From Alphaproteobacteria bacterium (lineage in GTDB: Bacteria; Pseudomonadota; Alphaproteobacteria; Bin95), in contig JAJDVH010000120.1 of NCBI GenBank assembly GCA_022826185.1, positions 1 through 32,690 on the forward strand: 32,690 nt of DNA, read 5' to 3'. Position numbers and translations under genes: made by a program. Below are positions 1-32,690 of this stretch, in pieces; positions within the stretch are counted from its first letter, which is position 1; each line of letters opens with the position of its first letter. A model generated the notes under the pieces. The model had not been told where the DNA came from. It saw only the letters and a list, made by a program, of their open reading frames with translations, and ran no database searches.

Positions 1-1200
1 AACACCCCCCGGCAGGAACCGCGCCTCAGGCGCAACCCATACCCCTGCGCCCTCAAACCGAAATACAAAACCCGCCACCGCCAACACCCAGCCGATTGCT
101 AAACTTGGCCGGACGACGCTCGCGGTGAGAAATCCGGGCTAGGCCCAAGCCGCTCACCATGAGGCAGCAGATGCGCGGGACGTCCTCCACTGCATCCACA
201 TGCCCATGCGCGCTATCCCACCGCCGTGCGATGTCCGATTTCTTCAACCGGAGCGTCGTGGTGACCTCGGCCAGGACTGTGAATTCCCCATAGTCGGCGC
301 TGGTATCGGAATTGCCCTGCGGGGCGGCACCGTAGGGGATGCCTTCCCGTCTTGCACGAGCGTGCGGAAGGGCCAGCGGGCCTTCTCCGGGCTGTCCAGG
401 ACGCTGAGGAACAGGCCCGTGATCGATTCCAGGTTTATCGCCCTGACGGCAATCCGGAAGTGCTGCTTTATCTTGTCGTCCTCGGCGACCAGCCTCCCTG
501 TCCTGGCGGTTCTTTTCTGCAAGCGGGGCCCGATGCTTCCGCATGGCCCTGCAGCCGTAGCTGTCGACCTGCACCATTCCGCTGAAGCCTTCGAGAAGCT
601 TCTGGCCATGCTTGCCGCTGCGGCCGGGAGAATACTCATATTGCGCCAAGCCAAGCTCTGGAAGGAGGAAGGTATGAACTAGAAACCTTGCATCGCAAGC
701 CAGCGGATCCAATTCTCGCCCGGTAAAGGCGCAGTCCGCCAGCCGGGAGCGAGTGTTGCAAGGCGTGCGGTAACGCCCGTCCTGAAGCGTACACAGCGGG
801 TGATGAAGCGACGTATTGAGCCTCGAAATTGCCAATGTCGGTGCCGTCGTTTTGTGAATGCGGAGGCACCCGCCCGAGACGTCAGCGGATTCGCCTACAG
901 GGCCGTTACTCGCTTGCCGCCGCGATCCCGTCCCGAAAGTCACGACTTGCCCTCGTTTCGTCAGAATCTCGCTCCGATGATGTGAGGGGCGCGCAACCCG
1001 ACAGAATTCCTCGATTCTCCGCCCCCTTCCGCAGGATCAGGAGAGGCGCCTGTCATCGTGTCGTAATCGGATCGATTCAATCCCCAGGCCACGACTGGCC
1101 TTCCATGTCCTCGTCATCGGAATTCGTTACTTCCCCCGGGACCCCATCGGCCGATGCCGACAGTACGCCCGGTCCTACAGTCTGCGAAAATGGTCTCGCG
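1..1200. other. Gene-poor stretch with decayed sequence
   Basis: I see no intact gene in this stretch. Open frames exist on both strands, but none keeps a recognisable protein from end to end. The only recognisable piece is the IS66-like fragment at 539-652. A 10-bp palindrome, ATCGGCCGAT, lies at 1146-1155 but has no T-run after it, so I do not call it a terminator. The stretch is downstream of the ubiquitin-like operon, which is transcribed towards it and ends at 1201. It looks like insertion-sequence debris at the edge of an accessory cassette. Confidence 0.5.
539..652 (-). pseudogene. IS66-like transposase fragment (degenerate)
   Basis: Translation of the minus strand gives a segment beginning QYEYSPGRSGKHGQKLLEGF and continuing with a QVDSYG-like sequence. 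This matches the central DDE region of IS66-family TnpC, where a Y-x-Y-x-P-x-R...LL-x-G-F-x-G-x-x-Q-x-D-x-Y pattern is typical. Outside about 38 residues the frame no longer resembles a transposase, and neighbouring frames do not restore it convincingly. I read it as a relic of an insertion sequence, not a working gene. A second IS66 relic, the C-terminal end, lies at 6290-6487 in the same orientation. The match is from memory of the family pattern, so it is moderate. Confidence 0.45.
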
Positions 1201-2595: not shown

Positions 2596-3041
2596 AACTC
2601 TCTCAAGTCATCTTGTGGCACATGAAGCCAAAATCCGTCCTCCGAAAATCGGTACACCTTGGCAAAATCCAAGAAGGACTCGACTGTCGTACCGAACGCG
2701 AAGTAAGGCAGCACAAGAGAAAGTGCGCCAACGTGGCGGATTATTGCCCAGTCGTCGTCCGCTTTGGAGTGGTATGCGCGGCCTGGATGCGTATGAACTT
2801 GCGCAGCCACCATTTGACGACGATAACGGAGTTCATTGTGAAGAGCCTTCATTCCTTCAGGAGTAATGTGAAACATGTCCGCTTTGGAAATGTGGGGCGG
2901 CTGATACGCGTCCGTAACTTGGATATGGCCCCCCGCTCGTTGTCCCAACCAAAGAACGATGCCCTCGCGCCGTTTCTTGCCTGCTTTTCGCAATAGCGTG
3001 AGGGTCGTGTGAATGACGTCAGAAGGGCAGTCGATGAGCAT
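2577..3041 (-). CDS. JAB/JAMM-family peptidase (deubiquitinase-like)
   Basis: This 154-residue protein is about the size of a minimal MPN+/JAB domain. JAMM metallopeptidases cleave isopeptide or peptide bonds after the glycine tail of ubiquitin-like proteins. The zinc-site signature is present: E26 (in EGIVLWLG), then H83 and H85 in VHTHPG, followed by an S-x-x-D stretch (S92...D95/D96). The fold therefore appears catalytically competent. In this operon it could remove the Ubl from targets or trim its precursor. Since the Ubl already ends in glycines, deconjugation is the better guess. The start codon follows the E2 stop codon immediately, and an AAGGGA Shine-Dalgarno-like stretch lies about 9 nt upstream. 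The 3' end overlaps the E1 gene, which indicates translational coupling. Confidence 0.87.
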   Translation of the reverse strand: MLIDCPSDVIHTTLTLLRKAGKKRREGIVLWLGQRAGGHIQVTDAYQPPHISKADMFHITPEGMKALHNELRYRRQMVAAQVHTHPGRAYHSKADDDWAIIRHVGALSLVLPYFAFGTTVESFLDFAKVYRFSEDGFWLHVPQDDLRELCLTIS

Positions 3042-3479
3042 TCAATCTGTTCCCTTTTGCCAGGCGTTCCATAGTTGAGTGAGGATTCCTCCGAGAGTGT
3101 AGTTCTCTTGGTTCTTCAAATTTTCCCAGAGATCACCAACGTGGCTGGGGTGTGTGTGGTACTCCCGTGCTCCGCGCATGCATACGAAGGGGCGTTGGGT
3201 CGAAGGATGAGGTCCTGGATTGAAGACCCCTGTCGGGTTGGGTGGCAATTGCGAAAGGAAATCCCCGTTGCCCGCGTGCAAAGTGATGGCGGGTGGTAGA
3301 TCATTCCAGTCGTCGCAATGAAGTTGCAACCGAAGGGTGGTGCGGCCGTTAGCCGTGAACGCGCAATCAATGCTTGGAAAATCGATAAGGTGTAAAACCC
3401 AGTCCCGGCGCTCGGCGAGCGCCGGGGTGAGTTTGCGAACCTGCTCCTCAAAGAGCAGCTTGGCCGCTGCAGGGTGCAT
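3042..3479 (-). CDS. E2-like ubiquitin-conjugating protein
   Basis: This 145-residue protein has the order of features expected of a prokaryotic E2/UBC-like domain. A beta-rich first half contains a Pro-rich loop (PPNPTGVFNP, about 79-88). A single cysteine in the PFVC motif (C100) lies where the E2 catalytic cysteine would be expected. A histidine-rich REYHTHPSH stretch (105-113) and a Trp-containing C-terminal helix follow. Other cysteines are C39 and C55. The role inferred is accepting the Ubl thioester from the E1 and transferring it to a target. The HxH segment could alternatively bind a metal or act as a general base. The start overlaps the Ubl stop (TGATG), and the JAB gene follows directly. 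Assignment rests on motif layout plus the Ubl, JAB and E1 neighbours, so the catalytic cysteine is a prediction. Confidence 0.75.
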   Translation of the reverse strand: MHPAAAKLLFEEQVRKLTPALAERRDWVLHLIDFPSIDCAFTANGRTTLRLQLHCDDWNDLPPAITLHAGNGDFLSQLPPNPTGVFNPGPHPSTQRPFVCMRGAREYHTHPSHVGDLWENLKNQENYTLGGILTQLWNAWQKGTD

Positions 3480-3784
3480 CAGCCGCCGCCGCCTTCCTTG
3501 GGGCCCCAGTCGATGTCGACCTGTCCAGAGAGCCGGTTCTCCATGTAGGTCTTCATCGGATCGATCTCTCGCAGGCCTTCTGGACCATTCACATTGGCGA
3601 TCCAGTCGCTCGTTGGCTTGATGTCGAGGTCGCGCGCGGCTTTCTCAAGCTGGAGCTCGACCTTGTCGTCGACCGGGACCTGATCGTACCCCTCGGCCGG
3701 ATAGAACCCTGCCGTGGTGGAGATCGAGACTTCGACGAACTTCTCCGGTACCACGTTAACAACCTGTGGTTCGTTAGCGCTCAT
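3479..3784 (-). CDS. Small ubiquitin-like modifier with Gly4 tail
   Basis: This is a 101-residue protein with a beta-grasp-like pattern: short beta strands (about 7-22), a long amphipathic helix (about 38-52), more strands, and a flexible tail ending in four glycines exactly at the stop codon. A free di-glycine or longer glycine end is the substrate of E1 enzymes, so no processing should be needed. I chose the ATG at 3784 because AGGAG lies 7 nt upstream. An upstream in-frame ATG at 3829 overlaps the predicted -10 box and cannot be in the transcript. The protein has one Ubl domain, unlike BilA of the described BIL antiviral operons, which has two. It may belong to a small Pfam Ubl family such as DUF2604, but I have not checked. 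First gene of the Ubl, E2, JAB, E1 operon. Confidence 0.82.
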   Translation of the reverse strand: MSANEPQVVNVVPEKFVEVSISTTAGFYPAEGYDQVPVDDKVELQLEKAARDLDIKPTSDWIANVNGPEGLREIDPMKTYMENRLSGQVDIDWGPKEGGGG

Positions 3785-3828
3785 GTGCTTCTCCTTGCCC
3801 GAGATGTCGGGCGTTACGTTGGAGCACA

Positions 3829-3857
3829 CATATAATGGCCACTGAATACAGTATCAA
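3829..3857 (-). promoter_or_regulatory. Promoter of the ubiquitin-like operon
   Basis: On the minus strand TTGATA (3857-3852) is followed after exactly 17 bp by TATATG (3834-3829), a good sigma-70-type match. Transcription would start near 3822 and give a leader of about 38 nt before the Ubl ATG at 3784. The dyad ACTGAATACAGT (3841-3852) and one GGCCATT-type half-site lie in the spacer, so a bound repressor would block this promoter. Confidence 0.6.
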
Positions 3858-3873
3858 GGGCCATTTGATGGCC
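3834..3873. promoter_or_regulatory. Repeat-rich operator between two divergent operons
   Basis: AATGGCC (3834-3840) is repeated in inverted orientation as GGCCATT (3859-3865) and again in direct orientation as ATGGCC (3868-3873). Between the first two copies lies the 12-bp dyad ACTGAATACAGT (3841-3852). The block sits between the two outward promoters. The first plus-strand gene encodes a ribbon-helix-helix protein, and that family usually binds short repeated half-sites in its own promoter. It is therefore the natural candidate ligand, with the XRE protein as an alternative. Confidence 0.5.
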
Positions 3874-3881
3874 GCCCCCTA

Positions 3882-3910
3882 TTGCATTGGTGGGCCGGAA
3901 AGCCTATATG
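3882..3910 (+). promoter_or_regulatory. Promoter of the RHH-GNAT-XRE-ImmA operon
   Basis: TTGCAT (3882-3887), a 17-bp spacer and TATATG (3905-3910) form a sigma-70-like promoter. The predicted start near 3917 leaves a leader of about 21 nt before the ATG at 3938, with the strong ribosome site GGAGGAA at 3923-3929. This placement rules out the in-frame ATG at 3887 as the start of the first gene. Confidence 0.55.
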
Positions 3911-3937
3911 AACCTAGACTGCAGGAGGAAGGGGGAC

Positions 3938-4147
3938 ATGGACCGGAGGCAGATGACGCTCATGCTGAGCGATAAGGAAATGAATTTACTAGATAATTTG
4001 GCCTCGCACCGAAACATGTCGAAGACGGCCTTGGTGCGACAGGCCCTTCGCCTTTACCAATCGGTGACGGAGCGAATCGAGAACGGCGAGAAGGTATTCG
4101 TGGAGGATCCCGGCACCAAAGCCAAGACCGAGCTGATGGTCCTATGA
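3938..4147 (+). CDS. Ribbon-helix-helix (CopG-like) DNA-binding protein
   Basis: This is a 69-residue protein with an RHH pattern: a short strand (QMTLMLS), a helix with NLLDNLASH, then MSKTALVRQAL and a second helix. Such proteins bind DNA as dimers and are often the antitoxin/autorepressor in toxin-antitoxin pairs. I use the ATG at 3938, which has GGAGGAA 8 nt upstream. A longer frame from 3887 would begin upstream of the predicted transcript. The stop overlaps the start of the GNAT gene by 4 bp (ATGA), so the two are translationally coupled. This arrangement matches RHH-GNAT pairs such as TacA-TacT, although the GNAT here is longer. The repeats at 3834-3873 are a plausible binding site. 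Confidence 0.75.
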   Translation: MDRRQMTLMLSDKEMNLLDNLASHRNMSKTALVRQALRLYQSVTERIENGEKVFVEDPGTKAKTELMVL

Positions 4148-4719
4148 AGGAGCACGTCCGCCAGGTCGAGCTTCTCAATCGAGCATCAGGGGAGTTCGAG
4201 CCAGCGGACGTGTTCCAAGAGTTGGACGACAAGAACTTCGACGACTTCGATCAGCTATGGAAGCCGGGGTTTTCCAGCCCCGCGCCGGATTCGCACTGGG
4301 ACTGGGTAGCTAAGGCGAGGCACGCGGTCTCCTCGATGGCTTTGGAAACCTTCGCCCTTGAGTGCGCCGAACATACGCAGGGTTTGATGCTCGTGAACTT
4401 AGCCTCATTCGCCAAGCTGGACAGCCAGCGAGGCCGTGATCTCGTCTACGTCGAGTTGCTTGCCACCGCACCCTGGAACAGGTCAACACCATCCCAAGCC
4501 GGGAAATATAAGGGCGTCGGCCGCGTTTTAATTGCAACTGCTATTCATTTGAGCATTGAACAAGGCTTTGGCGGAAGAATTGGTCTGCATTCTTTGCCCA
4601 CATCCCAAAGTTGGTACAGGGTCACACTCGGTCTCACTGATTGCGGCTACGATGTGGCAAAAGACATGCACTACTTTGAAATGACAGACCAACAGGCCCA
4701 AGTCTTCTTCGCAACATGA
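4144..4719 (+). CDS. GNAT-family acetyltransferase
   Basis: This 191-residue protein has a C-terminal half resembling a Gcn5-related N-acetyltransferase. The strand VYVELLATAP (101-110) precedes the acetyl-CoA loop KYKGVGRVL (121-129, the Q/R-x-x-G-x-G/A motif), a helix IATAIHLSIEQ, then LHSLPTSQSWYR and a GLTDCG turn typical of GNAT motif B. The substrate is unknown. RHH-GNAT toxins acetylate aminoacyl-tRNA, and the 4-bp overlaps with both neighbours make a toxin role plausible. However, it is longer than TacT-type toxins (about 160-175 residues), and its first 90 residues look unrelated to them. A metabolic or protein acetylase cannot be excluded. Its end overlaps the next start at 4716. 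Confidence 0.68.
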   Translation: MKEHVRQVELLNRASGEFEPADVFQELDDKNFDDFDQLWKPGFSSPAPDSHWDWVAKARHAVSSMALETFALECAEHTQGLMLVNLASFAKLDSQRGRDLVYVELLATAPWNRSTPSQAGKYKGVGRVLIATAIHLSIEQGFGGRIGLHSLPTSQSWYRVTLGLTDCGYDVAKDMHYFEMTDQQAQVFFAT

Positions 4720-5258
4720 CCAACGGGAGATCTGTCATGAAGACGTTGTTCACGCAGGAATGGCTTCGCCGAAAGATCGAGTCCGATCCCGATGTCGACG
4801 TGGAAGCTGGACCTACCTTAGACGACTGGGCTCTCCTCGCAGATTTTGGCGAAGAGAGTATCGAAAACACAAATCTTGCGACCATCAGGGAACGACATGT
4901 CGTTCCCCTACGCATGTCGCTAGGCTTGCTTGTACGCCAATTGCGCATGAGAGATGGCTTGACGGTGGAAGCGCTAGCCCTCAAGGCGAGCGTTTCCGAA
5001 GAGGAATTGAACCAAGTTGAGCACAACCCAAACTACACGGCACGTCCAAGATTGATTCACAATTTATCCGAATATTTTGACGTACAGCTAGAATACCTTT
5101 CGCAATTGGCCGGCGCCACGCACAAGGTCGATCGACAACTGTATAATACAGCCGTGCGGTATGCAGCAAAGTCAGATGAAGCGGCGGTACTAACTCAACA
5201 ACAAAAGGAAATTCTTGCCGGATTTGTCTCTTTGTTGAACGAGCGTCGCGGATCATGA
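4716..5258 (+). CDS. XRE-family helix-turn-helix protein
   Basis: This 180-residue protein carries a Cro/cI-type HTH at about residues 68-133. RQLRMRDGLTVEALALKASV and SEEELNQVE mark the first helices, and FDVQLEYLSQLAG is the usual end of such a domain. The N-terminal 65 residues are acidic and unassigned. The ATG at 4716 overlaps the GNAT stop by 4 bp. An ATG at 4737 with GGGAG upstream is an equally possible start and would remove seven residues. The gene lies directly before an ImmA/IrrE-type peptidase. In phages, ICEs and TA-like modules that pairing usually means a repressor whose activity is removed by the peptidase. Codon use is clearly less GC-rich than in the flanking DNA. Confidence 0.75.
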   Translation: MTNGRSVMKTLFTQEWLRRKIESDPDVDVEAGPTLDDWALLADFGEESIENTNLATIRERHVVPLRMSLGLLVRQLRMRDGLTVEALALKASVSEEELNQVEHNPNYTARPRLIHNLSEYFDVQLEYLSQLAGATHKVDRQLYNTAVRYAAKSDEAAVLTQQQKEILAGFVSLLNERRGS

Positions 5259-5261
5259 ACA

Positions 5262-6191
5262 ATGAGTGACGCATTGCCAGACGAACTTGAGAGACATGAT
5301 ATCCGGAAGCAAGTAAACCGTATTCTGCGGGATCTTGGAAATCCTGAACCTCCAATCAAACTGGCGGACGTGCGCTCGCTCCTGTCACTCGACCTACAAT
5401 ACTACAGCAGCTCTGATCCAGGGTTGGTATCGGAATTGACGCACCGTTTTCAGCTGATAGCAAAGAAAACTATTCCCGATCTGGGAAGACATTTGCAATT
5501 GGCACTTTCCAAGTCAAAACTTTGTGCGTTTTGGGTTCCAGCGCTCTCAAGAATCATGCTTGATGGCGATGTTCCTGAACCGAAGCATCGTTGGATTGAG
5601 GCGCATGAGATCATTCACAGCGTAATCCCGTGGCACAAGAATTTCCTATTGGGGGATAACGCACAGACGTTGGATCCTACGTGCCACGCAGTCCTTGAGG
5701 CTGAGGCAAACTATGGAGCAGGTCGATTATTGTTTCTCGATGAAAAATTTAATGCGGAAGCTAAGGATTTAGATCTGTCATTCAAGTCAATTAAGCTTCT
5801 ACAAAAACGGTACGCAAACTCTATTGTTTCTACGTTTTGGCGAATTGTCGAGGATAGAAACCCCCTTGATCCAGTTTTTGGAATGGTCAGTATACATCCC
5901 CACTATGCAGACGTTGGAAGTCATGACGGTCCGAACCCTTGGAGATACTTTATACGATCAGAGGCGTTTGCGCGGCAATTTTCGAGAATTTCATCGGAAA
6001 CCGTGTATGAATTGGTCAGGTCGCACGCCAGTCGGCGAAAAGCGGGACCAATATTTGCTGCACAAGACACAATTATTGATGATCGTGGGGAAGAGTGGGA
6101 AGTCGAACTAGAGTGTTTCTCGACTACCCATGCGGTACTCACTCTCGGGTACACCATCAAGGAGCGGCCGGTAGTAGTTCAAGTGAGCTAA
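5262..6191 (+). CDS. ImmA/IrrE-family metallopeptidase
   Basis: This 309-residue protein has a zinc-peptidase signature: HEIIH at 115-119 in RWIEAHEIIH, and a downstream EAEANYGAGRLLF segment (148-160) that supplies the third ligand in COG2856 proteins. ImmA cleaves the ICEBs1 repressor ImmR, and IrrE/PprI cleaves DdrO after DNA damage. By analogy this enzyme could inactivate the XRE protein encoded 3 bp upstream. The C-terminal 150 residues have no assignment I can make and may sense a signal. It is the last gene of the plus-strand operon. If the XRE or RHH protein also controls the facing ubiquitin-like operon, the peptidase would be the trigger for it. That link is inference. Confidence 0.8.
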   Translation: MSDALPDELERHDIRKQVNRILRDLGNPEPPIKLADVRSLLSLDLQYYSSSDPGLVSELTHRFQLIAKKTIPDLGRHLQLALSKSKLCAFWVPALSRIMLDGDVPEPKHRWIEAHEIIHSVIPWHKNFLLGDNAQTLDPTCHAVLEAEANYGAGRLLFLDEKFNAEAKDLDLSFKSIKLLQKRYANSIVSTFWRIVEDRNPLDPVFGMVSIHPHYADVGSHDGPNPWRYFIRSEAFARQFSRISSETVYELVRSHASRRKAGPIFAAQDTIIDDRGEEWEVELECFSTTHAVLTLGYTIKERPVVVQVS

Positions 6192-6289
6192 CAGGCAATT
6201 GTGCCGGGTGGTGATCGTGGGCCCTTCGGATCAATCGGAAGCGGTAAAATCGGAATAGTCGTATGCGGTGCGAGCGGGGCACCCGGGTT

Positions 6290-6487
6290 TCAGCTTGACG
6301 GGGGCTTGAAGCTCCACGGGAGCAGGTCGTCGAGGCGGTCATTGGGATGGCCGGCTGTGACGGCTTCGAGGGTGTCCTTGAGCCAGACGGCCGCAGCCGG
6401 GCACCGCGCCGACAGCGCCCGCACACGCCGCCAGTCCAGGCCGGAGAACAGCGCCTCGAAACGCTTGCCCAGTTCCGACTTGTTCAT
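6290..6487 (-). pseudogene. IS66-family transposase C-terminal remnant
   Basis: The minus strand encodes about 65 residues, including WLKDTLEAV, AGHPNDRLDDLLPW and a SFKPPSS end. Full-length IS66 TnpC proteins end in the same way (L-x-x-T/V-L-x-x-I...HP-x-x-R-I/L-D-D/E-LLPW). The rest of the transposase is absent upstream (higher coordinates). This is therefore a terminal relic, although an ATG at 6487 allows a short open frame. It lies about 100 bp beyond the end of the ImmA-like gene and has the same orientation as the relic at 539-652. Insertion-sequence debris thus flanks the double cassette. Confidence 0.65.
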
Positions 6488-6655
6488 CCATGGGCTCCCA
6501 TGCTTGCCGGGACCGCTCCATTCGGGGCCTGAGTAGCATGTTGCGCCGGTCTGCGCGATATCCGCGCAAGTCCGGCTCGCGATGTTCCTGCCCATGGACA
6601 GTCGGGTCTTGGGGTTGTGTCATGACCGCGTCGCGTTTCGATCGAGCGGTTCGGG
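6488..6655. other. Intergenic stretch without recognised genes
   Basis: This stretch, together with 6192-6289, holds no frame I can support. It joins the IS66 relic to the mobilisation block. The base composition shifts back to GC-rich here, consistent with the right edge of the imported cassette. Confidence 0.4.
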
Positions 6656-7258
6656 ATGACAGGGGACGATCAACTCCGGGAAAAGCTCGCCAGGATGGAG
6701 GCGTTGTTCCGGCGGGCCGGCAGTCCGGGGAAGCAGGCGGCAACTGGGGCCGCAATGGACCGGCTGCGCAACCGCCTCGATGGTCCGAACCTTGATGGCG
6801 GACCGGAGACGGAACTCCAGTTCTCGCTGCCCGACATGTGGTCGGTCAGGCTGTTCGTCGCCGTCTGCCGCAAGTACGGCCTGCGTTCCTTCCGCTACGC
6901 GCGGCAGCGGCGGACGACCGTCATGGTGCGCGCCCGCGAGCGGCATTTCGACCGCGTGGTATGGGCCGAGTTCAGCCGGCTTCAGACCGAGCTGCAATTT
7001 TATTTCGAAGACGTTACCGACCACCTGATTACTCGTGCGGCGATAGCCGTCGAAAACGACTTATACGGCTTCCACAATCACGCGGCCGCGTCCCCGGCGG
7101 ACGACGTAACCGCCCCGCCGGATCGAGAGCTTGCCGTCCTGTATCAGGCCCCACAAGGCATCGGAGATGGCCTTTGCATTCTCGTCCTCCTCCGGTTCCG
7201 CGACCGCCTGTTGCAGCCACTTCGCGAACGCTTCGTCGGCAATGGCCGTACCTACTGA
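6656..7258 (+). CDS. Plasmid-type hypothetical protein, 3' end doubtful
   Basis: The first 126 or so residues look like a real protein. A helical start (REKLARMEALFRRAGSPG), reminiscent of DUF2786-like openings, is followed by a conserved-looking core with SLPDMWSVRLFVAVCRKYG, a basic RQRRTTVMVRARE strand and FDRVVWAEFSRLQTEL. I recall similar proteins on alphaproteobacterial plasmids but know no function. After about residue 126 (position 7034) the frame runs antisense through the gene at 7061-7396 and loses any protein-like character. I infer a lost stop codon or a frameshift near 7035-7060, so the true product may be about 130 residues. No strong ribosome site precedes the ATG. Confidence 0.5.
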   Translation: MTGDDQLREKLARMEALFRRAGSPGKQAATGAAMDRLRNRLDGPNLDGGPETELQFSLPDMWSVRLFVAVCRKYGLRSFRYARQRRTTVMVRARERHFDRVVWAEFSRLQTELQFYFEDVTDHLITRAAIAVENDLYGFHNHAAASPADDVTAPPDRELAVLYQAPQGIGDGLCILVLLRFRDRLLQPLRERFVGNGRTY

Positions 7259-7396
7259 TTTGCGGAGGGCGGCGAGTTTTCGTAACTGGCCCTTGGTCAG
7301 GGCGGATTCGTCGAACATCCGGGAGAACTCCCTTAGCTGTCTTTCGGGTTGCGCCGGCAGAATAACGGCCGCAAGCATGGCTTCGCCCTGTGTCAA
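7061..7396 (-). CDS. Small conserved hypothetical protein
   Basis: This 111-residue protein has a helix-rich middle (LTKGQLRKLAALRKSVG, EAFAKWLQQAV), an acidic EPEEDEN loop and a basic end, IRRGGYVVRRGRGRVIVE. The final segment looks like a beta-rich, nucleic-acid-binding tail. I recall similar small proteins beside relaxase genes in alphaproteobacteria, but no function is known to me. It lies upstream-to-downstream with the relaxase on the same strand, 133 bp after it. A shorter start at 7378 is possible. It converges with, and overlaps, the doubtful 3' part of the gene at 6656. Confidence 0.6.
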   Translation of the reverse strand: MTQGEAMLAAVILPAQPERQLREFSRMFDESALTKGQLRKLAALRKSVGTAIADEAFAKWLQQAVAEPEEDENAKAISDALWGLIQDGKLSIRRGGYVVRRGRGRVIVEAV

Positions 7397-7529
7397 TTGT
7401 CGCGCCGGTCGGCTGTCCTTTGCCGAGCGCTTGGCGACAGGGACATCCCGTCGTTCCGCTCTCCCTGCCGGGGAACGATTGCAGGCGCAGCAAGCCTTGC
7501 GGAGGCGTATTCCGCAACGCTCGCCGCGC

Positions 7530-10500
7530 CTAGAGTTTTATCCCGCCGCCCTCGCTCCGCTCCTGCCTGCGTTCCTCTTCGAGCCTGAGGCGCTCGGCTT
7601 CCGCAAGCGCCTGTTCCTCCGCCAGCCGCTGCCGTTCGGCGGCGCGGGCTTCCTCGTCCTCGCGCAGCCGTTCGGCGATCTTCGCGGCATACTCGTCGAT
7701 GGCGTCGGGCCTGGCGTCGGCGGCGTCGAGATGGGCCTTCAGTTCCCCTTCCGGAATGTCCCGCCTGAGCGCGTCCGCCTCGGCAAGCACATCATCGGCG
7801 TCCTGCTTCCACGCCTCGGGTGTTAGCGGCAGCCCCATCGGCGCCCGGAATTCGGGAGGCAGGCCGTCCATGCGGTCGCGGTCATTGAGCCGCTTGCGCG
7901 CCAGGTCGAGGAACGCCTTGACGCGGGCCCGGCCCCTTGCCAGGCGCCCGCGTTCCACCGGATCGGCGTGTTCGGCCGTGCCGGACGCGACGGCGCCGGT
8001 CGGTTCGGCCGCCTGTCCGACGAGCTCCTGAAGGTAGTCGGCCTGCGCCGCCCCGATTTCGGCCAGCGCATTTTCGATCTGGTCGGCAGCCTCCACCAGC
8101 GCCTTGCGCTCCTCTGGCATGGCGGCCAGGTGGGGCGCATGCGGGCTTTCCTCCGCCAGCATGGCGCGGGCCTCGGCGAGCAGCGGCTCAGCCCTGTCGC
8201 GCCAGCGCAGCATCGGCCAGATGCTCTCGCCGAGCCCGGGCCGCTCGCCGAGGAGCGCATCGGCGCGCGCCGGCCAGTCCCGGACCTCCCGGCGGAGCTG
8301 TTCGCACCGGGCGTCATAACGGGGCCAGTCTCCAACGGCCCGCCTCCGGTCTTCATCGAGGCCTTCTTCCCCGAAGAGCGAACGGGCATGGGCCACCGTC
8401 TCCGGGTAGCGGGGCGCATAGTACCACACGGTTCCCGCCTCCCTCGCCTTGCCGGTGACATGCCGCGTCAGCCATGCGAACCGCCGGTAGCGGTCGTCCA
8501 GGATGGCGGCGTCGATCTCCGCAAGCGCCGCGGCGACCGCGTTCCGCGCGCCCGGCATGGCGTTCATGTGGTGGCCGTGCGGACCCTCCGCCTCCAGCAT
8601 GCCGGCGGCCTCGTTCCGGAGCGCGTCGCCCTCCTCGCGCCAGGCGTGGCAGGCGGGATCGACCGGATCGGCGCCACCATGTTCGTCGAGCGGCAGGTCC
8701 GTCTCCCGCCGCGCCCGCCATGCCGCCGTGCGCGCCGGCAGGGAGCGGATGGCGCCGGCCAGCGCCGTCTGCCGGTCATGGACCGTCAGCCAGTCGTCCA
8801 CCAGGCGCCGGTCGGCCGGGTCGAGGCCCTCGGCTTCCGCGAGCCGCCCGGCCAGTGCAGCGAGCGCGATGCAGCCCTTCAGATGCAGCTCCGGTACGCC
8901 CTCGCGGACGGCGCTCGCGCCGAGCACCGTCCGGTCCCGCCGGAACCGTTCGCAGTCGTCGCAGAGCCGCATGCGCTCCAGCGCCGCAGCCTCGCCCTCG
9001 AGCCCGCCGGCCATGCCCGGCACGGCGTCCATGTCGTACGCCTCGTCCAGCAGCGCCGCGCCTTCCTCGCGCCATGCGGCATGTTCCGGCAGGTCCTGCC
9101 GCGCGCAGCCCCGCGCCGAGGCGATCCAGCCGAGCTCCGGCCAGCGCCGCCAGTGCGCCCGGAGGCGGTCGGCATGGCTCCGCACGTCCCGCTCATGCGC
9201 GGCATGACGTTCATGCTCCGCCAGCATGCCGTCCACGAAGGCGCGCATGTCCGCCGGCAGCTCCTCCACGAGGGAGAGCACCGCCGCCCGCGCCATGACG
9301 TCATCCGCGCCCGGCAGCAGGAACGGCGGCATACCGGTCTCCTCGCCCCGCCGCTGCAACGCACGCCAGTCCGCCGCGAGCGCCTCGAACAGTTCCGGCT
9401 CGACGACAGGCATCACGGCCGGGTCGAGCCCCAGCGCCTCCAGCGCGCCGTCCTCGCGGTCGGGGCGCGCCTCCAGCATCTCCACCAGCGCCTCGCGGTC
9501 GTCGGTCAGCAGTTGGAACGACTCCGAGGCCCGGCTGACCTCGACATGGAACATGGCCTGGTCGACGGCGCCATGCGCGTCCAGCACTGCGATGACGGTC
9601 CTGGCGGTGCGGCCCTGGGCGCCATGCACGGTCGAGCAGTATGCATGGTCCAGGTGGCGAAGCTGGGGGTCCTTGCGCCGGAGCGGGAACGTCCGGCCGG
9701 CCTCGTCGCGGAACAGCACCCGCTGGCGGTCGATGTCGACGATCTCCGCCTCGCCGCCGTTTACAAGGTCCGGCTGGCGGGGATGGCCGAACCTGGCGGG
9801 CGGGGCCTTGCGGTTGCGGGTCCAGCGGATGCGGTCGCCGGCCCTGACCTCGATCCGCTCCGTGTCGTAGAGCCCGAGATATGTGGCGGCATTGCCCGAG
9901 GGCCGGAACCGGCGCTCGCCGCCGTCCGGGCCTTCCAGCACCACATGCCCGTCCTCCGCGCCCATGACCGTGCAGACATCGCCCGCAAGGCAGCCGAAGG
10001 TGCTGCGGTGGAAGACGATGGTGTCGCCCGGCTCGTAGCTCCTTATGTCGGAGGCCTGCGCGCGCGTCAGGCGGCGGTCCACGAGGCGGTCGATGGCGAG
10101 CGCCCGCCCGTGCAGCAGTCCCTCCGCCTCAAGCCCCTCGCGCACGGTGTCGCTGACCTGCCGGCGGATCGTATGGGTCGGCGCCAGGATGAGCGCGTCG
10201 GCGCGGTCTTCGGGAGGCAGGTCGAGCCAGCGCCGGCCCGCCTCCGGCCCCAGCGCCTCGCGGGGATATTCGCTCACCCGCGGGCCGAGTTCCCCGATCG
10301 CGGCGCCCGGCTCGCCCGCGCGGGCGCGGCCCGACGCTTTCTTCAGCTCCGGGTCCCTCTGGCGCAGCACCTCGTCCATGACCGCCGTCGCCATGCCAGC
10401 CTTCTGCAGCACCCGGAAGGGCTGGCCGGCATCCACGGCGCGCAGCTGCGCCGTATCGCCCACCAGCGCCACCCGGGCGACGCCGAGCGAGCGCGCGATG

Positions 10501-12287
10501 CGCAGCAGCGCCTCCATGCGCACCGTGTCGATCATCGAGGCCTCGTCCACCGCCAGCACCGCGCCCCCGAACTCCGCCCGCGCCCGCGCCAGCCGTGCCG
10601 GGTCGGAGAGGTCCCCATGGCGGGTGAGGAACCATTGCAGGGTGCGCGACGGGATGCCCGCCTCGCGCGCCAGCACCCGGGCAGCGGAGGCGGAGGGCGC
10701 GAGGCCGAGGATGGTTCTGCCGCCGAGCAGGTCCTTCACGGTGCGCAGCATGGTGGTCTTGCCGCTACCGGCATGGCCCTGCACGCCCACGATCCGGTCC
10801 CGGGAGAGCAGGATCGTCCTGACCGCCTCCTTCTGGCCTTCGGTCAGCCCGCTCTCCAGGAGGCTGACCTCGACCGCGACCGGCACGGCCTGCGCCTGTC
10901 CCCGGTCCCGCTCCGCGCGCAGCGCCGCCAGCATGCGCCGCTCGGTCTTCACGGCGCGGTCGGTGACGAAGGCCCGGTCCGCGCCCCGGCTCTGCGTCTC
11001 CACCAGCTCGCCGCTGCGCACCAGGCGCGCGACGGCGGCATCGACCTCGGCCAGCGTATGGCGCCCCGGCGCATGGCCGAGCGCGACGGCCCGGATCTCC
11101 GCCTCCGGGATGCGCACCCGCCGTTCCTCCACATGCGCCACCGCCCGCGCGACGGCTTCCAGAAGGCCCGGTTCGGGCTCGTATGAGAGTTTCGCCCGTG
11201 CCGTGGCGCGCGCGAGCCGCAGGGACGCCTTGTCCGCCCGGACCGCCGCCGCGTCGCGCGCCAGCTTCGGCAGGGCCGGGGCGCGCTGGCGCTTGCGCCG
11301 CTCGTTCGCCGGCAGGGTGGAGGCCGGCATGCGCGGCGCGGCGCTCCGCTCTCCGGTCAGCGGGTCCAGCGGCCGGGGCGGCGAGAGCTCCGCCTTGTCG
11401 CGCACGAGGCCGAGTTCGCGAACCCGCGCGCGCCATTCCGGCACGAGGTCCGCCAGGCTCTCCTCGGTCTTGCGCCTGCGGGTGCGCAGCGCCGCCGCCT
11501 GCGCGTTCCTCGCCGTCAGGGACAGGTTCCTGCGCTTCAGGTCCGCCTCGATCGCCAGCCGCCGGGCCGAGAACGCCTCGACGAACTCGCGCGGGTAGCC
11601 CGCAAGCTCGAAGCCCGGGATGCGTCCGACCAGCCTTGGCGCGACCGCCATGCCGAGCGCCTCCAGCCGCCGGGCCAGCTCGTTGCGGTAATACGCCCCG
11701 ACCAGCTTCACGTTCCATTTGACGGCCGTCGGCTCGACGCTCCGCCACTGGCCCGAGGCATTGCGCGTCATGTTGGCCAGCACGCAGTGGGTGTGCAGCG
11801 TCGGGTCACGGTCGCGGCTGGTCAGGTGCCGGAACCCCGCAACGACCATGCCGCCCGCCTTCACCCGCGGGCGCCGCCTCGTCGCCGGGTCCCAGCCCCG
11901 CGTCTGCAGCAGGTCCCGCTCCACCCAGTCCAGGGTGGCGCGCACCGCCTCGTCATGCGCCCGGATCACCCGCCGGTCGCCCATCACCAGCGCCTCGATC
12001 GACACCGACTTCGGCGCCGAGAGGGTGAGGTCCCAGCCGGGACGGTGATCGTGCTCGCCCTCGCGCTTGCGCCCGAGCCGGATGTCCGTCCCCGGCACGA
12101 ACCCCGCCAGCACCGACTCGAACCGCTTCGGGCGCACATGGCCCCCGAGACCCAGCGCGCTCGCCGCCTCCCCGTGCCAGAAGCTCGCCTGCCGGTGCTC
12201 CGGGTCGTTCCGCGCGTAGTAGCCGTCCCGCTCGAAATAGGACACGACGACAGCGGAGGAGTTGAGTTCGACGAAGGTCGCGACCAC
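7530..12287 (-). CDS. MobF-family conjugative relaxase-helicase
   Basis: This 1585-residue protein nicks oriT DNA and unwinds it during conjugation. Residues 1 to about 300 are a TrwC/TraI-type relaxase: candidate nucleophile tyrosines Y17, Y23 and Y24 near the N-terminus, and the metal-binding histidine triad in FRHLTSRDRDPTLHTHCV. Residues of about 450-950 are a superfamily 1 helicase, with Walker A GHAGSGKTT near 500, the DEAS Walker B-type motif, and CSTVHGAQGRT near 885. The last 600 residues are unusual: W-R-x-E-G-x-x-L-L-x-E-A-like units recur near residues 1070, 1215, 1360 and 1490, ending in a charged coiled coil. The gene follows a membrane-anchored accessory protein in the same direction. 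No coupling protein or T4SS genes are visible, so the element may be mobilisable or continue outside the window. Confidence 0.92.
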   Translation of the reverse strand: MVATFVELNSSAVVVSYFERDGYYARNDPEHRQASFWHGEAASALGLGGHVRPKRFESVLAGFVPGTDIRLGRKREGEHDHRPGWDLTLSAPKSVSIEALVMGDRRVIRAHDEAVRATLDWVERDLLQTRGWDPATRRRPRVKAGGMVVAGFRHLTSRDRDPTLHTHCVLANMTRNASGQWRSVEPTAVKWNVKLVGAYYRNELARRLEALGMAVAPRLVGRIPGFELAGYPREFVEAFSARRLAIEADLKRRNLSLTARNAQAAALRTRRRKTEESLADLVPEWRARVRELGLVRDKAELSPPRPLDPLTGERSAAPRMPASTLPANERRKRQRAPALPKLARDAAAVRADKASLRLARATARAKLSYEPEPGLLEAVARAVAHVEERRVRIPEAEIRAVALGHAPGRHTLAEVDAAVARLVRSGELVETQSRGADRAFVTDRAVKTERRMLAALRAERDRGQAQAVPVAVEVSLLESGLTEGQKEAVRTILLSRDRIVGVQGHAGSGKTTMLRTVKDLLGGRTILGLAPSASAARVLAREAGIPSRTLQWFLTRHGDLSDPARLARARAEFGGAVLAVDEASMIDTVRMEALLRIARSLGVARVALVGDTAQLRAVDAGQPFRVLQKAGMATAVMDEVLRQRDPELKKASGRARAGEPGAAIGELGPRVSEYPREALGPEAGRRWLDLPPEDRADALILAPTHTIRRQVSDTVREGLEAEGLLHGRALAIDRLVDRRLTRAQASDIRSYEPGDTIVFHRSTFGCLAGDVCTVMGAEDGHVVLEGPDGGERRFRPSGNAATYLGLYDTERIEVRAGDRIRWTRNRKAPPARFGHPRQPDLVNGGEAEIVDIDRQRVLFRDEAGRTFPLRRKDPQLRHLDHAYCSTVHGAQGRTARTVIAVLDAHGAVDQAMFHVEVSRASESFQLLTDDREALVEMLEARPDREDGALEALGLDPAVMPVVEPELFEALAADWRALQRRGEETGMPPFLLPGADDVMARAAVLSLVEELPADMRAFVDGMLAEHERHAAHERDVRSHADRLRAHWRRWPELGWIASARGCARQDLPEHAAWREEGAALLDEAYDMDAVPGMAGGLEGEAAALERMRLCDDCERFRRDRTVLGASAVREGVPELHLKGCIALAALAGRLAEAEGLDPADRRLVDDWLTVHDRQTALAGAIRSLPARTAAWRARRETDLPLDEHGGADPVDPACHAWREEGDALRNEAAGMLEAEGPHGHHMNAMPGARNAVAAALAEIDAAILDDRYRRFAWLTRHVTGKAREAGTVWYYAPRYPETVAHARSLFGEEGLDEDRRRAVGDWPRYDARCEQLRREVRDWPARADALLGERPGLGESIWPMLRWRDRAEPLLAEARAMLAEESPHAPHLAAMPEERKALVEAADQIENALAEIGAAQADYLQELVGQAAEPTGAVASGTAEHADPVERGRLARGRARVKAFLDLARKRLNDRDRMDGLPPEFRAPMGLPLTPEAWKQDADDVLAEADALRRDIPEGELKAHLDAADARPDAIDEYAAKIAERLREDEEARAAERQRLAEEQALAEAERLRLEEERRQERSEGGGIKL

Positions 12288-12353
12288 GGGCTCAGAGCCT
12301 TCCCTCGGAAGCGCCGGCCGCGCCGCGTCGGAGGAGAGGGTTCGGGGGCGGGG

Positions 12354-12932
12354 TCAACTGTCCGGCAGCAGGCTGTAGAAGAGATGTATCCTGCTCTCGA
12401 GAGCCATGCCGGCGGCGACGGCCAGGCCCGTGATCGTCATGCAGAGCCCGGGAACGATCCACCGGCCGCGCCGCATCCTGTCCAGCGCCGTCCCGACCTC
12501 CCGCAGCCCTGACGAGATGCCCTCCAGATAGCGGACGGTTCTCCCGTCGAACGCGTCGACCTTCGCCTCGATCCTTTCCAGCGTCTTCCCGATCCCGGAC
12601 ACACCGTCGCGGATTGCGAACCGCTCGCGCCGTTCCTCCAGGCCCCCGGCCTCTGTGACCGACCGCTCCACGCTCTTCGCGATGCTCTCCGCCGCCGCGT
12701 CCGCCTCCCTGGAAACCATCGCGCCGAGCCGCGCCAGAAAGCCCTCCTCCCACGCCGCCAGATCCTCCCGCGTCAACGGCTCCGGCCGTTCCGGCGCCGT
12801 CAGCCGCTCCCGGATGTCCAGCATCCACGCCCGCACTTCCTCGAACGCCGCCGGATCGATCCCCGGCTCTGCCGGCACGCCCGCCAGAAGGTCCGGCCTC
12901 CGCCGGCCGCTCCCGTCCCGTCCCGTCGTCAT
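12354..12932 (-). CDS. Membrane-anchored mobilisation accessory protein
   Basis: This 192-residue protein is hydrophilic and helical up to about residue 155, with a coiled-coil-like stretch at 75-130. It then has one likely membrane segment (WIVPGLCMTITGLAVAAGMA, 158-177) and a short tail. Single-pass proteins of this layout often lie beside relaxase genes and may link the relaxosome to the membrane. I cannot name a family. It is 66 bp upstream of the relaxase gene on the same strand, so co-transcription is likely. The gene diverges from the small gene at 13127. Confidence 0.6.
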   Translation of the reverse strand: MTTGRDGSGRRRPDLLAGVPAEPGIDPAAFEEVRAWMLDIRERLTAPERPEPLTREDLAAWEEGFLARLGAMVSREADAAAESIAKSVERSVTEAGGLEERRERFAIRDGVSGIGKTLERIEAKVDAFDGRTVRYLEGISSGLREVGTALDRMRRGRWIVPGLCMTITGLAVAAGMALESRIHLFYSLLPDS

Positions 12933-13032
12933 GTCTCGTCATCCCTCTTCATCGCTGACCGCCCGGCGCCGGTGCGGCCGCGGCAAGCCCGGAAGGATCG
13001 TACCGGCCGATCCCGTGAAACGCCGCCCGGTT

Positions 13033-13061
13033 TTGCGGTTCGGTGCCGTACCGGATATGAA
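13033..13061 (+). promoter_or_regulatory. Putative promoter of the small gene at 13127
   Basis: TTGCGG (13033-13038), a 17-bp spacer and TATGAA (13056-13061) make a plausible sigma-70 promoter. The spacer contains the dyad CGGT-GCCGT-ACCG (13041-13053), which could be an operator. In GC-rich DNA such matches arise by chance, so this is tentative. Confidence 0.38.
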
Positions 13062-13126
13062 GACGCCCGGCCCCGGTCCGCGTCCCGGCGGACGCGCCCG
13101 GCCGGGCGGCTTTCCGGAGGAAGCGC

Positions 13127-13492
13127 ATGACCTCGATCTTCGATCCGGCCCTGGTCGAGACCCACCACCTCTACCATGCCAAGGCCGGAGTGGGCGCCGT
13201 CATCGCCGCCATCCCGAAAGCCGCGGAAGACGAGGCGGGCGAGAGCCACAGGCGCCTGGGCCTTCATGTCGCGTACTTCTTCAACGCCCGGGTTCCTAAG
13301 GTTATCGGCACCGCCCCCGACTTCCAGCGGATCAAGGCGATCCGCGAAGAAGCCGGTTTCGTCCATGTGACGCTGCACCTCCAGTATCCGGACCCCGACA
13401 GCGCTGACTTCGCTATGAGGTGGGCCGAGGTCGACCGCGCCATCCCCGCCCATCACGTCGCGCTCGAAATCATCCGGACCGACCGGCAATAG
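13127..13492 (+). CDS. Small hypothetical protein in mobilisation block
   Basis: This 121-residue soluble protein is of unknown function. It starts at an ATG with an excellent ribosome site (GGAGGAAG, 6 nt upstream) and keeps a balanced composition. Alternating helix and strand are suggested (GVGAVIAAIPKAAEDEAGES, LGLHVAYFFNA, FVHVTLHLQYPDP, HHVALEII). A histidine-containing start (ETHHLYHAK) is notable. No catalytic motif or membrane segment is obvious. It is transcribed against its neighbours, between the relaxase accessory gene and the RHH operon, with its own putative promoter. Confidence 0.55.
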   Translation: MTSIFDPALVETHHLYHAKAGVGAVIAAIPKAAEDEAGESHRRLGLHVAYFFNARVPKVIGTAPDFQRIKAIREEAGFVHVTLHLQYPDPDSADFAMRWAEVDRAIPAHHVALEIIRTDRQ

Positions 13493-13820
13493 GCGACCCC
13501 GAAGACCGGCCTCCCGGCCTTCGCGCCGTGCGCCGGCCTGTATCGAACGGCATATATGAGCGTATCGGCGATACCCTGTAGGAACCGTCGCCCATACGGT
13601 CCCGGGAACGCCGGAATCCAACATCGTCATGCGCAACACAGAAACGACACTGGGATGCGTCCGGGCGTTGCCAGGAAACGATGTTTCGACAACACAGAGG
13701 CAATGCTGTCCCACCGATCATATAACCGATCCCGAGCAACGGCATCGCCTCTCACGTTGTAGAAACTCTGCCATGAAGCCTCCATGACGCCGGTCCGCGG
13801 CAACCGAAGTACCGCAGTTG
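13493..13820. other. Non-coding region, candidate relaxosome/oriT site
   Basis: No gene is supported in these 328 bp. GTATCG occurs at 13540-13545 and, 22 bp on, within the perfect 13-bp dyad GTATCG-G-CGATAC (13562-13574). A second inverted repeat, GGAACCGT (13581-13588) with ACGGTCCC (13596-13603) around a 7-nt loop, has one mismatch in eight. Dyads and direct repeats beside relaxosome-type RHH genes are what an origin of transfer looks like, but I cannot recognise a nick site. The alternative is an operator region. Confidence 0.4.
13562..13574. repeat. Perfect 13-bp dyad GTATCG-G-CGATAC
   Basis: This is a perfect inverted repeat with one central base. The same hexamer is repeated at 13540 upstream, and three times at 15212, 15228 and 15239 on the other side of the RHH operon. 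It is a likely recognition site for one of the three RHH proteins. Confidence 0.5.
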
Positions 13821-14315
13821 TCACGACCACAACCCCCCGTCCGGGCCTTCCGGTTGCGCCGTGTCTTCGATCCGCTCCTCCTGGGCAGCCGCAGGCGCGA
13901 CGGAGGCGGCGACGAGCCGGGCGCGGTCCCCGCCCAGCACCGAGGCGAGCGCCGCGTGCAGCTCCTCTCCCCGGCCCGCGCCGGCCATGGCCGACATCCA
14001 GGCCGCGAACTGCACCGCAATCCGCTCCTGCATGTCCCGCACCAACGGCGCCGCATCCGCCCCCTCCAGCATCAGCGACCGGATCTCCCGCACCGCCGCC
14101 AGCAACTCCTTCTGCTCGGCCGCATCGAGCGCGAGCGCAGGTCCCTCGACTTCCTCCGGACCGCCGCGCTCCACAAGGCCCACGAGGTAGCGCGCGATCG
14201 ACAGGCCCCTCCGGTCCGCATGCCGGCGCACCGTCTCCCACTCGCTGTCCCACGCCGAGATCGAGATATGCTTGCTTGTCGCCTTCGCCCTCCGGCCCCG
14301 TCTCGCCCGCCTCAT
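13821..14315 (-). CDS. RHH relaxosome-like protein A
   Basis: This 164-residue protein has a basic start (MRRARRGRRAKATSK), an RHH-like segment (ISISAWDSEWETVRRHADRR, then GLSIARYLVGLVERG) and a longer helical C-terminus with EQKELLAAVREIRSLMLEG. It is the third of three overlapping genes with the same layout. Such proteins (MobC, NikA, VirD1 types) bind oriT and assist the relaxase. The ATG at 14315 overlaps the stop of protein B by 4 bp (ATGA). A longer frame upstream runs antisense-like through protein B in another frame and is not used. It probably acts as a heteromer or paralogous partner of B and C. Confidence 0.65.
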   Translation of the reverse strand: MRRARRGRRAKATSKHISISAWDSEWETVRRHADRRGLSIARYLVGLVERGGPEEVEGPALALDAAEQKELLAAVREIRSLMLEGADAAPLVRDMQERIAVQFAAWMSAMAGAGRGEELHAALASVLGGDRARLVAASVAPAAAQEERIEDTAQPEGPDGGLWS

Positions 14316-14623
14316 CGGCCGCGCTCCCGCGCCAGCAGGGAGATCGCCCCCAGCAGGCTGAGGCCGCTGCCGCCCGGAAGTTCGCGCCTGAGCGCCAGCA
14401 CCAACGCCCCGACCTCGCGCATGCCGTCCAGAAGCTCCCGTTGCTCCTTCTCCGTCAGCACCAGGGGATGGCGGTCCGGATCGTCGGCAAGCGCAAGGTC
14501 CAGCACATGGCGCGATACCGGCTTGCCGGCCTCCGCCGCCTTCTCCCGGATCATCGCCTGCTCCGCCGGCGTGCAATGCAGGCTCCGCTGGCGCCTCACG
14601 GGACGCGCAATCTCTTCCGTCAC
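14312..14623 (-). CDS. RHH relaxosome-like protein B
   Basis: This 103-residue protein starts at a GTG at 14623 that overlaps the stop of protein C by 4 bp (GTGA). It has the same design as its neighbours: a basic start (RPVRRQRSLHC), a helix TPAEQAMIREKAAEAG, KPVSRHVLDLALAD, and a C-terminal helix EKEQRELLDGMREV. The last stretch is strikingly like EQKELLAAVREI in protein A, which shows they are paralogues. The predicted role is relaxosome DNA binding. A start further upstream in the same frame would run through most of gene C and is rejected. Confidence 0.62.
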   Translation of the reverse strand: MTEEIARPVRRQRSLHCTPAEQAMIREKAAEAGKPVSRHVLDLALADDPDRHPLVLTEKEQRELLDGMREVGALVLALRRELPGGSGLSLLGAISLLARERGR

Positions 14624-15006
14624 GACTCCTCCTCCTCGTCCTCCGGGCCCATGCCCACCGCCTTCCAGCGGTTGGCCGCGGCGGGATCGGTCAGCCGGTC
14701 CATCAGGCCCTCCCGGTCGATCCACTCGTCCACCGCGTCGCAGGCGTCCTCCCAGTCGGCGCCCAGGCCCGCATCCCTCAGACGCCGCTCCTCGAGCAGC
14801 GACATCGCCAGCATCTCCCGCACCGCCCGGCGCAGCACCTCCGGCGGCAGCATGTCCGCCGCCAGCGCGCGATGGATCACGAAGCGCGAGAGCTCCATGC
14901 CGCTTGCGACCGCCCGCCGGGAGATGCGCTCCCACTCCTCGTCGGTCGCCATCACCGCGCGCTGGCGCCGCCCTTCCTCTCCGCCGGTCATCGCCGCCTC
15001 CGGCAC
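14620..15006 (-). CDS. RHH relaxosome-like protein C
   Basis: This 128-residue protein, first of the operon, carries RRQRAVMATDEEWERISRRA followed by GMELSRFVIHRALAADM, the same RHH-like pattern as A and B. It then has a helical part and a strongly acidic end (GPEDEEEES). Start choice is between the ATG at 15006 and one at 14991. The three genes C, B and A follow each other with 4-bp overlaps, implying equimolar production. The upstream region holds three CGATAC hexamers that could be its operator. Confidence 0.62.
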   Translation of the reverse strand: MPEAAMTGGEEGRRQRAVMATDEEWERISRRAVASGMELSRFVIHRALAADMLPPEVLRRAVREMLAMSLLEERRLRDAGLGADWEDACDAVDEWIDREGLMDRLTDPAAANRWKAVGMGPEDEEEES

Positions 15007-15211
15007 GAAACGGGGGCCTTGACCCGCAACACACGGCTATCCTCATATGCTGCTGATGACGAGAATGCTCCTGCGTCAGTCCACATGACCATTTCTCCAT
15101 ATCGGTTGACGCATCGTACATATGTCGTTATCAGTGGTCTACTCAAAATCCGTACCGGCACGTCATACAAATCGCATACATTCCACGTTCATCCACCTCG
15201 TTCAGTTCCCT

Positions 15212-15244
15212 CGATACCATCAATTCACGATACAGCTTCGATAC
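15212..15244. repeat. Three CGATAC hexamers in 33 bp
   Basis: CGATAC occurs at 15212-15217, 15228-15233 and 15239-15244 in the same orientation. By chance a given hexamer would appear about once per 4 kb per strand. The other cluster is at 13540-13574, on the far side of the RHH genes. Confidence 0.5.
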
Positions 15245-15275
15245 TTGTTGTTTCCGCTGTCCGCAAAATATCTCC

Positions 15276-15304
15276 TTGACAGTGCCTTCAAGGCATTCTA
15301 TTCA
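15276..15304 (+). promoter_or_regulatory. Strong sigma-70 promoter with dyad in spacer
   Basis: A perfect TTGACA (15276-15281) and TATTCA (15299-15304) are separated by exactly 17 bp. The spacer holds the perfect inverted repeat TGCCTT-C-AAGGCA (15283-15295), a classic position for a repressor operator. Transcription would begin near 15311 and run into the truncated amidohydrolase gene. The promoter probably belongs to the mobile element and now drives whatever lies beyond the junction. Confidence 0.6.
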
Positions 15305-15347
15305 AAGGACTTATCAGGGAGACAAAACGACCCTGCGTCAGATCGCC

Positions 15348-15377
15348 TGAACCTCCAACTTGACTCATGGAGGTTCA
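15348..15377. repeat. 9-bp inverted repeat at the gene junction
   Basis: TGAACCTCC (15348-15356) and GGAGGTTCA (15369-15377) are perfect inverted copies separated by 12 nt that contain the stop-blocked frame and most of the ATG at 15367. The site lies where the amidohydrolase coding sequence begins abruptly. It could be a recombinase core site with two arms, or an RNA hairpin that occludes the start codon. Confidence 0.45.
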
Positions 15378-16281
15378 TACCATCGACGACTATGCGGCCG
15401 ATTGCGCCTTGGGCCACGATATCCGCGCCTCGGTCTATATCGAGGTGCGCCAGCACTACCGGGACGGCGGCCCCGAGCATCTGAGGCCCGTCGGAGAGAC
15501 GGAGTTCGTCTCGTCGCTGGCGGAGCGCGCCGAGCGGGGCGCCTGGGGAGGCCGCAGGCTCTGCGCCGGCATCGTCGGCTATGCGGACCTCGCCGTCGGG
15601 GACAGGGCGGGCGAGATTCTGGACGCCCATATCGAGGCCGGCGGCGGGCGCTTCAGGGGCATTCGCCGGGGCGTCTATTGGGACGCCGACGAGGCCGTTT
15701 ACGGCCATATCAGCATGCGCCCGCCACCGGGCCTGCTGCTGGATGCGGAATTCGCGCGCGGCTTCCGGCAATTGCACGCCCGCGGCCTTTCGTTCGACGC
15801 CGTGCTCTTCCACCCGCAGTTGCCCGAACTCGCGGACCTCGCGCGGCGGTTCCCGGACACGCCGATAATCCTCAACCATCTGGGCTTCCGCCTGGGCGTC
15901 GGGCGCCACGCCCTCGACCCGGCCGGGGCGACGGAGCAGTGGCGGCGCGGGCTGGCCGCGGTCGCCGAATGCCCGAATGTCCTGATGAAGGGCGGCGGCT
16001 TCGGCATAAGGCTGTGGGGGTTCGACATCGCCGAGGGCGAGCGGCCCCCTTCGGACGTCCTGGCGGAACTCTGGCGGCCGTTCTTCGAGACCGGACTGGA
16101 GCTCTTCGGGACCGGGCGCGTCATTCTCGAGAGCAACTACCCCGTGGACGGGCAGACAACGACCTTCACGGCCCTCTGGAACGCCTTCAAGCGCCTGACG
16201 GGCGGCTGCTCCGACGACGAGAAGCGCCTGCTCTACCGGGAAAACGCCAACAGGGCCTACAGGCTGGGCCTGGAGACGTGA
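15367..16281 (+). pseudogene. Amidohydrolase-2 family hydrolase, N-terminus missing
   Basis: The 304 visible residues match the body of an amidohydrolase-2 (TIM-barrel) protein: TIDDYAAD (5-12), SVYIEVRQHY (22-31), GETEFV (43-48), a probable metal histidine H149 in FHPQ, H171 in NHLGF, and D261 in ESNYPVDG. Relatives begin some 30-40 residues earlier with a D-x-H-x-H-x-W motif that binds the metal. Here that part is absent, and a stop codon lies two codons before the ATG. I found no displaced HxH in the other frames upstream. The protein is probably inactive or altered, although the promoter at 15276 could express it. The 3' end is intact and converges with the LLM gene 7 bp away. Members of this family hydrolyse lactones, decarboxylate or cleave C-N bonds. 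The original substrate is unknown. Confidence 0.75.
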
Positions 16282-32304: not shown

Positions 32305-32403
32305 ATGCGGCGCTCCCCGGCGGCCCTGCCAATTGGCCCTTTTTCCACCGGCCCGGCAAGGCGTCGCCGTGCAGGAGGACCCCCTGCGAAACGTCATGAA
32401 TTG

Positions 32404-32688: not shown

Positions 32689-32690
32689 GA

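Follow-up and report, generated by a model that had tools for sequence, protein, structure and literature searches.

What happened to the first part of an amidohydrolase gene that begins in the middle of its domain? The gene lies in the window (the whole stretch of 32,690 nucleotides analysed here), and a preliminary description had proposed that the right end of a mobile element was joined to chromosomal DNA inside the gene, removing its first codons. The open reading frame (15367-16281) has a single readable start, ATG 15367, giving MEVH-TIDDYAAD; reading the sequence ahead of this ATG revealed no Shine-Dalgarno-like stretch, and an in-frame TGA lies two codons 5' of it (15361-15363), as had been described. 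The match to the Amidohydro_2 profile covers only positions 77-289 of 289, in agreement with the earlier reading that the gene starts mid-domain at TIDDYAAD; an intact orthologue of 330 aa (L033) matches the full 1-289. The window frame does not encode a complete Amidohydro_2 domain with an N-terminal D-x-H-x-H. This metal motif, D-A-H-H-H in the intact orthologue, falls in the missing N-terminal part, as the preliminary description held, but the tryptophan of the D-x-H-x-H-x-W that it named is not there: the residue two after the last histidine is methionine (DAHHHLM).

Five loci in our genome collection encode relatives of the amidohydrolase, two of them close: L033 (97%), apparently identical with contig C120 of genome G005, and L034 (93%). 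Comparison with these relatives, a step already advised, placed the breakpoint exactly at 15379, where DNA identity of the window to both begins, inside the interval of 15348-15400 anticipated for it. Close orthologues starting naturally at this position had been named as the observation that would overturn a truncation; instead, the reading frame of both (2/2) extends upstream to a start 31 codons earlier. The proposed junction between element and chromosome within this gene is supported.

We searched the window's own assembly, a draft of 279 contigs, with L033:3800-6060 and found the missing 5' part on contig C175 (609-2391, 95%). It sits at the other end of the element, where the preliminary description had suggested looking; the first codons were not removed, as that description supposed, but displaced, and a deletion of the 5' end is ruled out. 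A naturally short enzyme or a late start with no insertion could make use of the in-frame ATG at 15367, the first four codons of this frame being element DNA. The upstream starts of both orthologues and the displaced codons elsewhere in the same genome leave this reading next to no probability; the 5' half on C175 refutes it.

The C175 match stops at query position 2214 and the window match starts at 2205, an overlap of 10 bases. These form an imperfect 10-bp repeat, whose right copy (15379-15388, plus strand) is ACCATCGACG and whose left copy on C175 is ACCATTGACG; the same ten bases read ACCATCGACG in L034 and ACCGTCGACG in L033. When the flanks are joined after ACACC, they give a 330-aa frame, the length found in L033. 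Since C175 holds the 5' part and the rejoined frame equals L033 in length, the gene was split after codon 31 with nothing lost. Its 3' part, on the plus strand at 15379-16281, comprises codons 31-330 and the stop. On C175, the native start overlaps the stop of an upstream GMC oxidoreductase gene. Without the D-x-H-x-H metal ligands and without its native start, the leftover 3' piece is probably dead. In L034 (1378-1923), the same amidohydrolase has a separate in-frame deletion of 447 bp further on, with short sequence similarity at the break points and a possible origin as an assembly error. If it is not such an error, this deletion adds a second route of decay for the gene to that of the insertion. 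Outside the element, a dispersed repeat at 32349-32690 of the window is 85% similar to C175 27-331 on the opposite strand.

The window holds the element from 1 to 15378, and its left end lies on C175 from 2392 onward. We characterized the right end first within the window and then among the four right ends known (the window and contigs C35, C46, and C255). The element ends in an AT-rich strip of about 350 bp (15029-15378, G+C 0.47). A change of base composition at the junction, as previously claimed, holds for this strip but not beyond it, deeper element DNA having a G+C of 0.72 versus 0.71 on the host side. In all four right ends, the last 350 bp have a G+C of 0.47-0.49 beside DNA of 0.61-0.75, and the four have little sequence in common. 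At the extreme right end of the window's element is a perfect 9-bp inverted repeat around 10 nt (15349-15376), of a kind expected 0.01 times in the window even when as many as 3 mismatches are tolerated. The palindrome recurs in three right ends (9/9, 7/9, and 6/9 pairs), perfect in the window and weaker in the two related ends; none was seen at the C255 right end, so we dropped it as a right-end hallmark of the family. Left and right ends compared in inverted orientation show weak similarity (6, 7, 7, and 5 of 10). We searched 14 family genomes for GAACC-N12/26-GGTTCANACC; beyond the three known ends, this returned five matches, all in another genus, against seven for a reversed control, so the pattern was uninformative. 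Within contigs holding a left end, we found no convincing right end by repeat or motif.

At the left end, the repeat on C175 is followed by CACCTGTCGGTGCTAACTATCTGATATAGCG and then by two tyrosine recombinase genes, intA and intB (2507-3628 and 3632-4780), 3 bp apart (3628 and 3632) with nothing between them. IntA and IntB each have an arm-binding and a catalytic domain and are ~40% identical to each other. A DNA search matched the left-end stretch with this pair in all eight genus genomes examined, among the matches listed; 39 of the 41 loci fetched from those matches yielded 40 left ends. A full-length intB accompanies a full-length intA in 27/28 genus loci, both genes pass all four catalytic-motif tests in 25 of the 27 pair loci, and DNA conservation among copies ends at the end of intB. 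The element thus belongs to an expanded family, the same left end and pair recurring in different genes across the genus. A third tyrosine recombinase gene, XerC/D-like, lies inside the element 1.3 kb from the pair (L055, G000:C175, 6070-7155); none of the other loci among 44 gave a match to it, which rules it out as a core component.

The left junctions revealed a target preference. For 36 of 40 left ends (34 of 38 when only distinct flanks are counted), the host DNA has ACACC 7-9 nt ahead of the boundary, compared with 0.4% of 20,000 random positions at that spacing by chance, and CG stands at the left border in 34/40; host DNA at the left junction accordingly reads ACACC-N5/6-CG. Right at the border is a 5-bp inverted repeat, GCACC-N3/4-GGTGC (for example, L055 2391-2404). 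It is perfect in 35/40 left ends, including a compensated variant, GCATC/GATGC, in four (L103-L106), and the same scan found such repeats in 4/40 further inside and 1/40 in the flanks. This repeat may reflect folding or a dimer-binding site. A weak, sub-threshold match to an IS66-like transposase near the contig end (window 53-943) would fit a break caused by a DDE transposon or insertion sequence. We regard that origin as highly improbable, as no transposase gene was recognized beside either junction, the left end carries tyrosine recombinases, and the repeats, besides being imperfect, go with ACACC targets.

The assembly contains no physical link between C175 and the window contig, the stretch between them being unassembled; the interior could therefore be more than one element. 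If the two flank one element, it measures at least ~20 kb (15.4 kb in the window plus 4.9 kb on C175). A chimeric assembly, or an unrelated rearrangement such as a deletion or translocation, might also have joined foreign DNA to the gene, and both the draft state of the assembly (279 contigs) and the repeated nature of the element, which favours misjoins, are compatible with this. We nevertheless judge it very unlikely: in another genome (G005), two right ends break off at the identical base of the element; the base at which the 5' part of the gene gives way to the conserved left end is the matching one; and rejoining the flanks restores the reading frame.

We resolved both ends of two further insertions. 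A dioxygenase gene of G005, uninterrupted in all five relatives with a long match, is split between a left end (C161) and a right end (C35); its spacer reads GTCATCG on the left and TTCATCG on the right, and four of the relatives have TTCATCG and one has TTCGTCG. In G000, a class II aldolase gene is divided between a left end (C188) and a right end (C255), with spacers AAGCACG on the left and GAGCATG on the right, and with AAGCATG (four) or AAGCACG (one) in five uninterrupted copies. The left repeat differs from the right at 1-2 positions in each of the three insertions resolved at both ends. A left end in G002 (L071) occupies the aldolase site of G000 (L093), and G002 also has an uninterrupted copy on C298. 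Similarly, the site in an alpha/beta hydrolase gene with a right end in G005 (C46, L057) is that of a left end in G003 (L082); three close relatives have this site uninterrupted, as do, judging from an alignment that spans it, two distant ones, and the right half of the G003 insertion was not found. Different genomes of the genus thus carry an insertion at the same target site, either through inheritance or because insertion happened more than once. We read 39 frames into left junctions and scanned 20, picked mostly for high third-position G+C rather than at random; 13 of these 20 match a Pfam family, a count that does not establish interruption by insertion for each.

Because both gene halves are complete and in frame, an exact excision would bring the amidohydrolase back, and the element might in principle act as a reversible switch whose programmed excision returns the gene when needed. 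Copies in many unrelated genes, and the resemblance of a relaxase-bearing element to ordinary mobile DNA, make a switch very improbable.

The proposed mobility of the element rests on its gene content. A MobF (TrwC/TraI-type) relaxase-helicase is encoded on the minus strand at 7530-12287 (profile match), and relaxase matches occur in 6/44 loci, four of which also have a left end. A weakly matching NikA-like (mobilization accessory) protein is encoded at 14312-15121, also on the minus strand; 79% identical copies adjoin the two G005 right ends, and it had no match among plasmids. No conjugation-apparatus genes were found among the proteins scanned, the middle of the element being unassembled. 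We also note cargo resembling a ubiquitin-like conjugation operon (window 1201-6191; E1-like, JAB-like, and CEHH, with BilC and BilD matches), adjoined by CapH/CapP-like regulators. This cargo is probably a defence module of the element.

Taken together, these data make it very probable that what split the amidohydrolase gene after codon 31 was an integrative mobilizable element (IME) with paired tyrosine recombinases and a loose choice of targets. Our confidence is high for the insertion itself and moderate for its mechanism. We propose that the element would circularize, bringing its right end (GGTTCAYACC) beside its left end (CACC-N4-GGTGCTAAC); IntA and IntB would then exchange strands within the 7-8 nt after a target ACACC, leaving slightly mismatched repeats; and the circle, by virtue of the MobF relaxase, would be transferable to another cell by a helper conjugation system. 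Excision, the circular form, and conjugative transfer are what we infer from this arrangement. The spacing between ACACC and the border is not constant (7, 8, or 9 nt), which is unusual for a tyrosine recombinase and counts against this reading, as do the gap between the two contigs, the small number of right ends (four) with little common sequence, and the mismatched repeats of all three resolved insertions; in addition, we saw no circular form and no empty site in the same strain. More tentatively, we entertain a broader and rather doubtful possibility: that these elements of a single alphaproteobacterial genus, with their paired tyrosine recombinases, form a separate and as yet undescribed family, requiring of a target little beyond ACACC and a loosely spaced CG and having a short left-border inverted repeat, and so behaving as a many-copy mobilizable transposon, possibly with folded single-strand exchange or a strand bias like that of the SEs discussed below.

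A truncated open reading frame has thus become a resolved insertion with both gene halves in hand, and about 40 natural insertion sites are available for reading the target rule of a paired-recombinase system. The recombinase pair and the ends can be set beside sites that relatives have kept uninterrupted, so that footprints can be compared site by site. This bears on the question of why certain elements require two or three recombinases, and illustrates how metabolic genes of an uncultured lineage are inactivated by such elements.

When up to 3 mismatches are allowed, the left-end pattern is present in 3 of 385 genomes of the class, each of which belongs to this genus. The recombinase pair as such is widespread: IntA-related proteins occur on 211 plasmid records, all at <60% identity, and the records inspected have adjacent pairs, overlapping by 4 bp in 3/3. 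These are pairs of neighbouring tyrosine recombinase genes on plasmids of Shewanella, Vibrio, and Aurantiacibacter, ~36-40% identical to IntA/IntB, and those plasmid records contain no description of ends, targets, or mobility. The accessible portions of PMC8627217 and PMC8138268 contain no description of such a pair family, nor did our literature search, whose scope excluded most subscription journals, return one of the present family.

Among known systems, the conserved left end, the pair, and the matched junctions point to a recombinase of its own and defined ends, as in an IME. MTnPi1-3 of Prevotella intermedia are IMEs that combine a duo of tyrosine integrases with loose targets; as far as the accessible text describes them, they likewise have two tyrosine recombinases, are mobilizable and not self-transmissible, and occur in several copies per genome (PMC5704250). 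They differ in preferring AT-rich targets, whereas here the target is ACACC, a comparison by description only, and their recombinases are called distantly related, whereas here the pair is ~40% identical and the host alphaproteobacterial (PMC5704250). RIT and BIM elements differ in gene number or kind, according to the part of PMC3414803 available; a RIT has three adjacent overlapping recombinase genes, and here two are adjacent and the third, not conserved, is 1.3 kb away. GInts, in the available sections of PMC5385486, are genomic islands with three integrases; they depend on ginABCD, which encodes the three integrases and a small helix-loop-helix protein, and show high target specificity. 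Our element shares with them recombinase genes at the 5' end, variable cargo, an AT-rich 3' end (G+C 0.47-0.49 in the four right ends), and imperfect flanking repeats (10-11 nt in GInts, 10 bp here), but has two conserved recombinases rather than ginABCD, and many targets (PMC5385486). A strand-biased circularizing integrative element (SE) has the order intA-tfp-intB-srap and one very large recombinase; the accessible parts of PMC10214605 and PMC9345347 describe SEs as lacking a relaxase and report them only from Gammaproteobacteria. Two tyrosine recombinases, a short spacer footprint, and target-side bases kept at the border are common to both (PMC10214605, PMC9345347), but here intA and intB stand 3 bp apart with nothing between them. 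On this comparison, the element appears to work like GInts and SEs but falls within the definition of neither.
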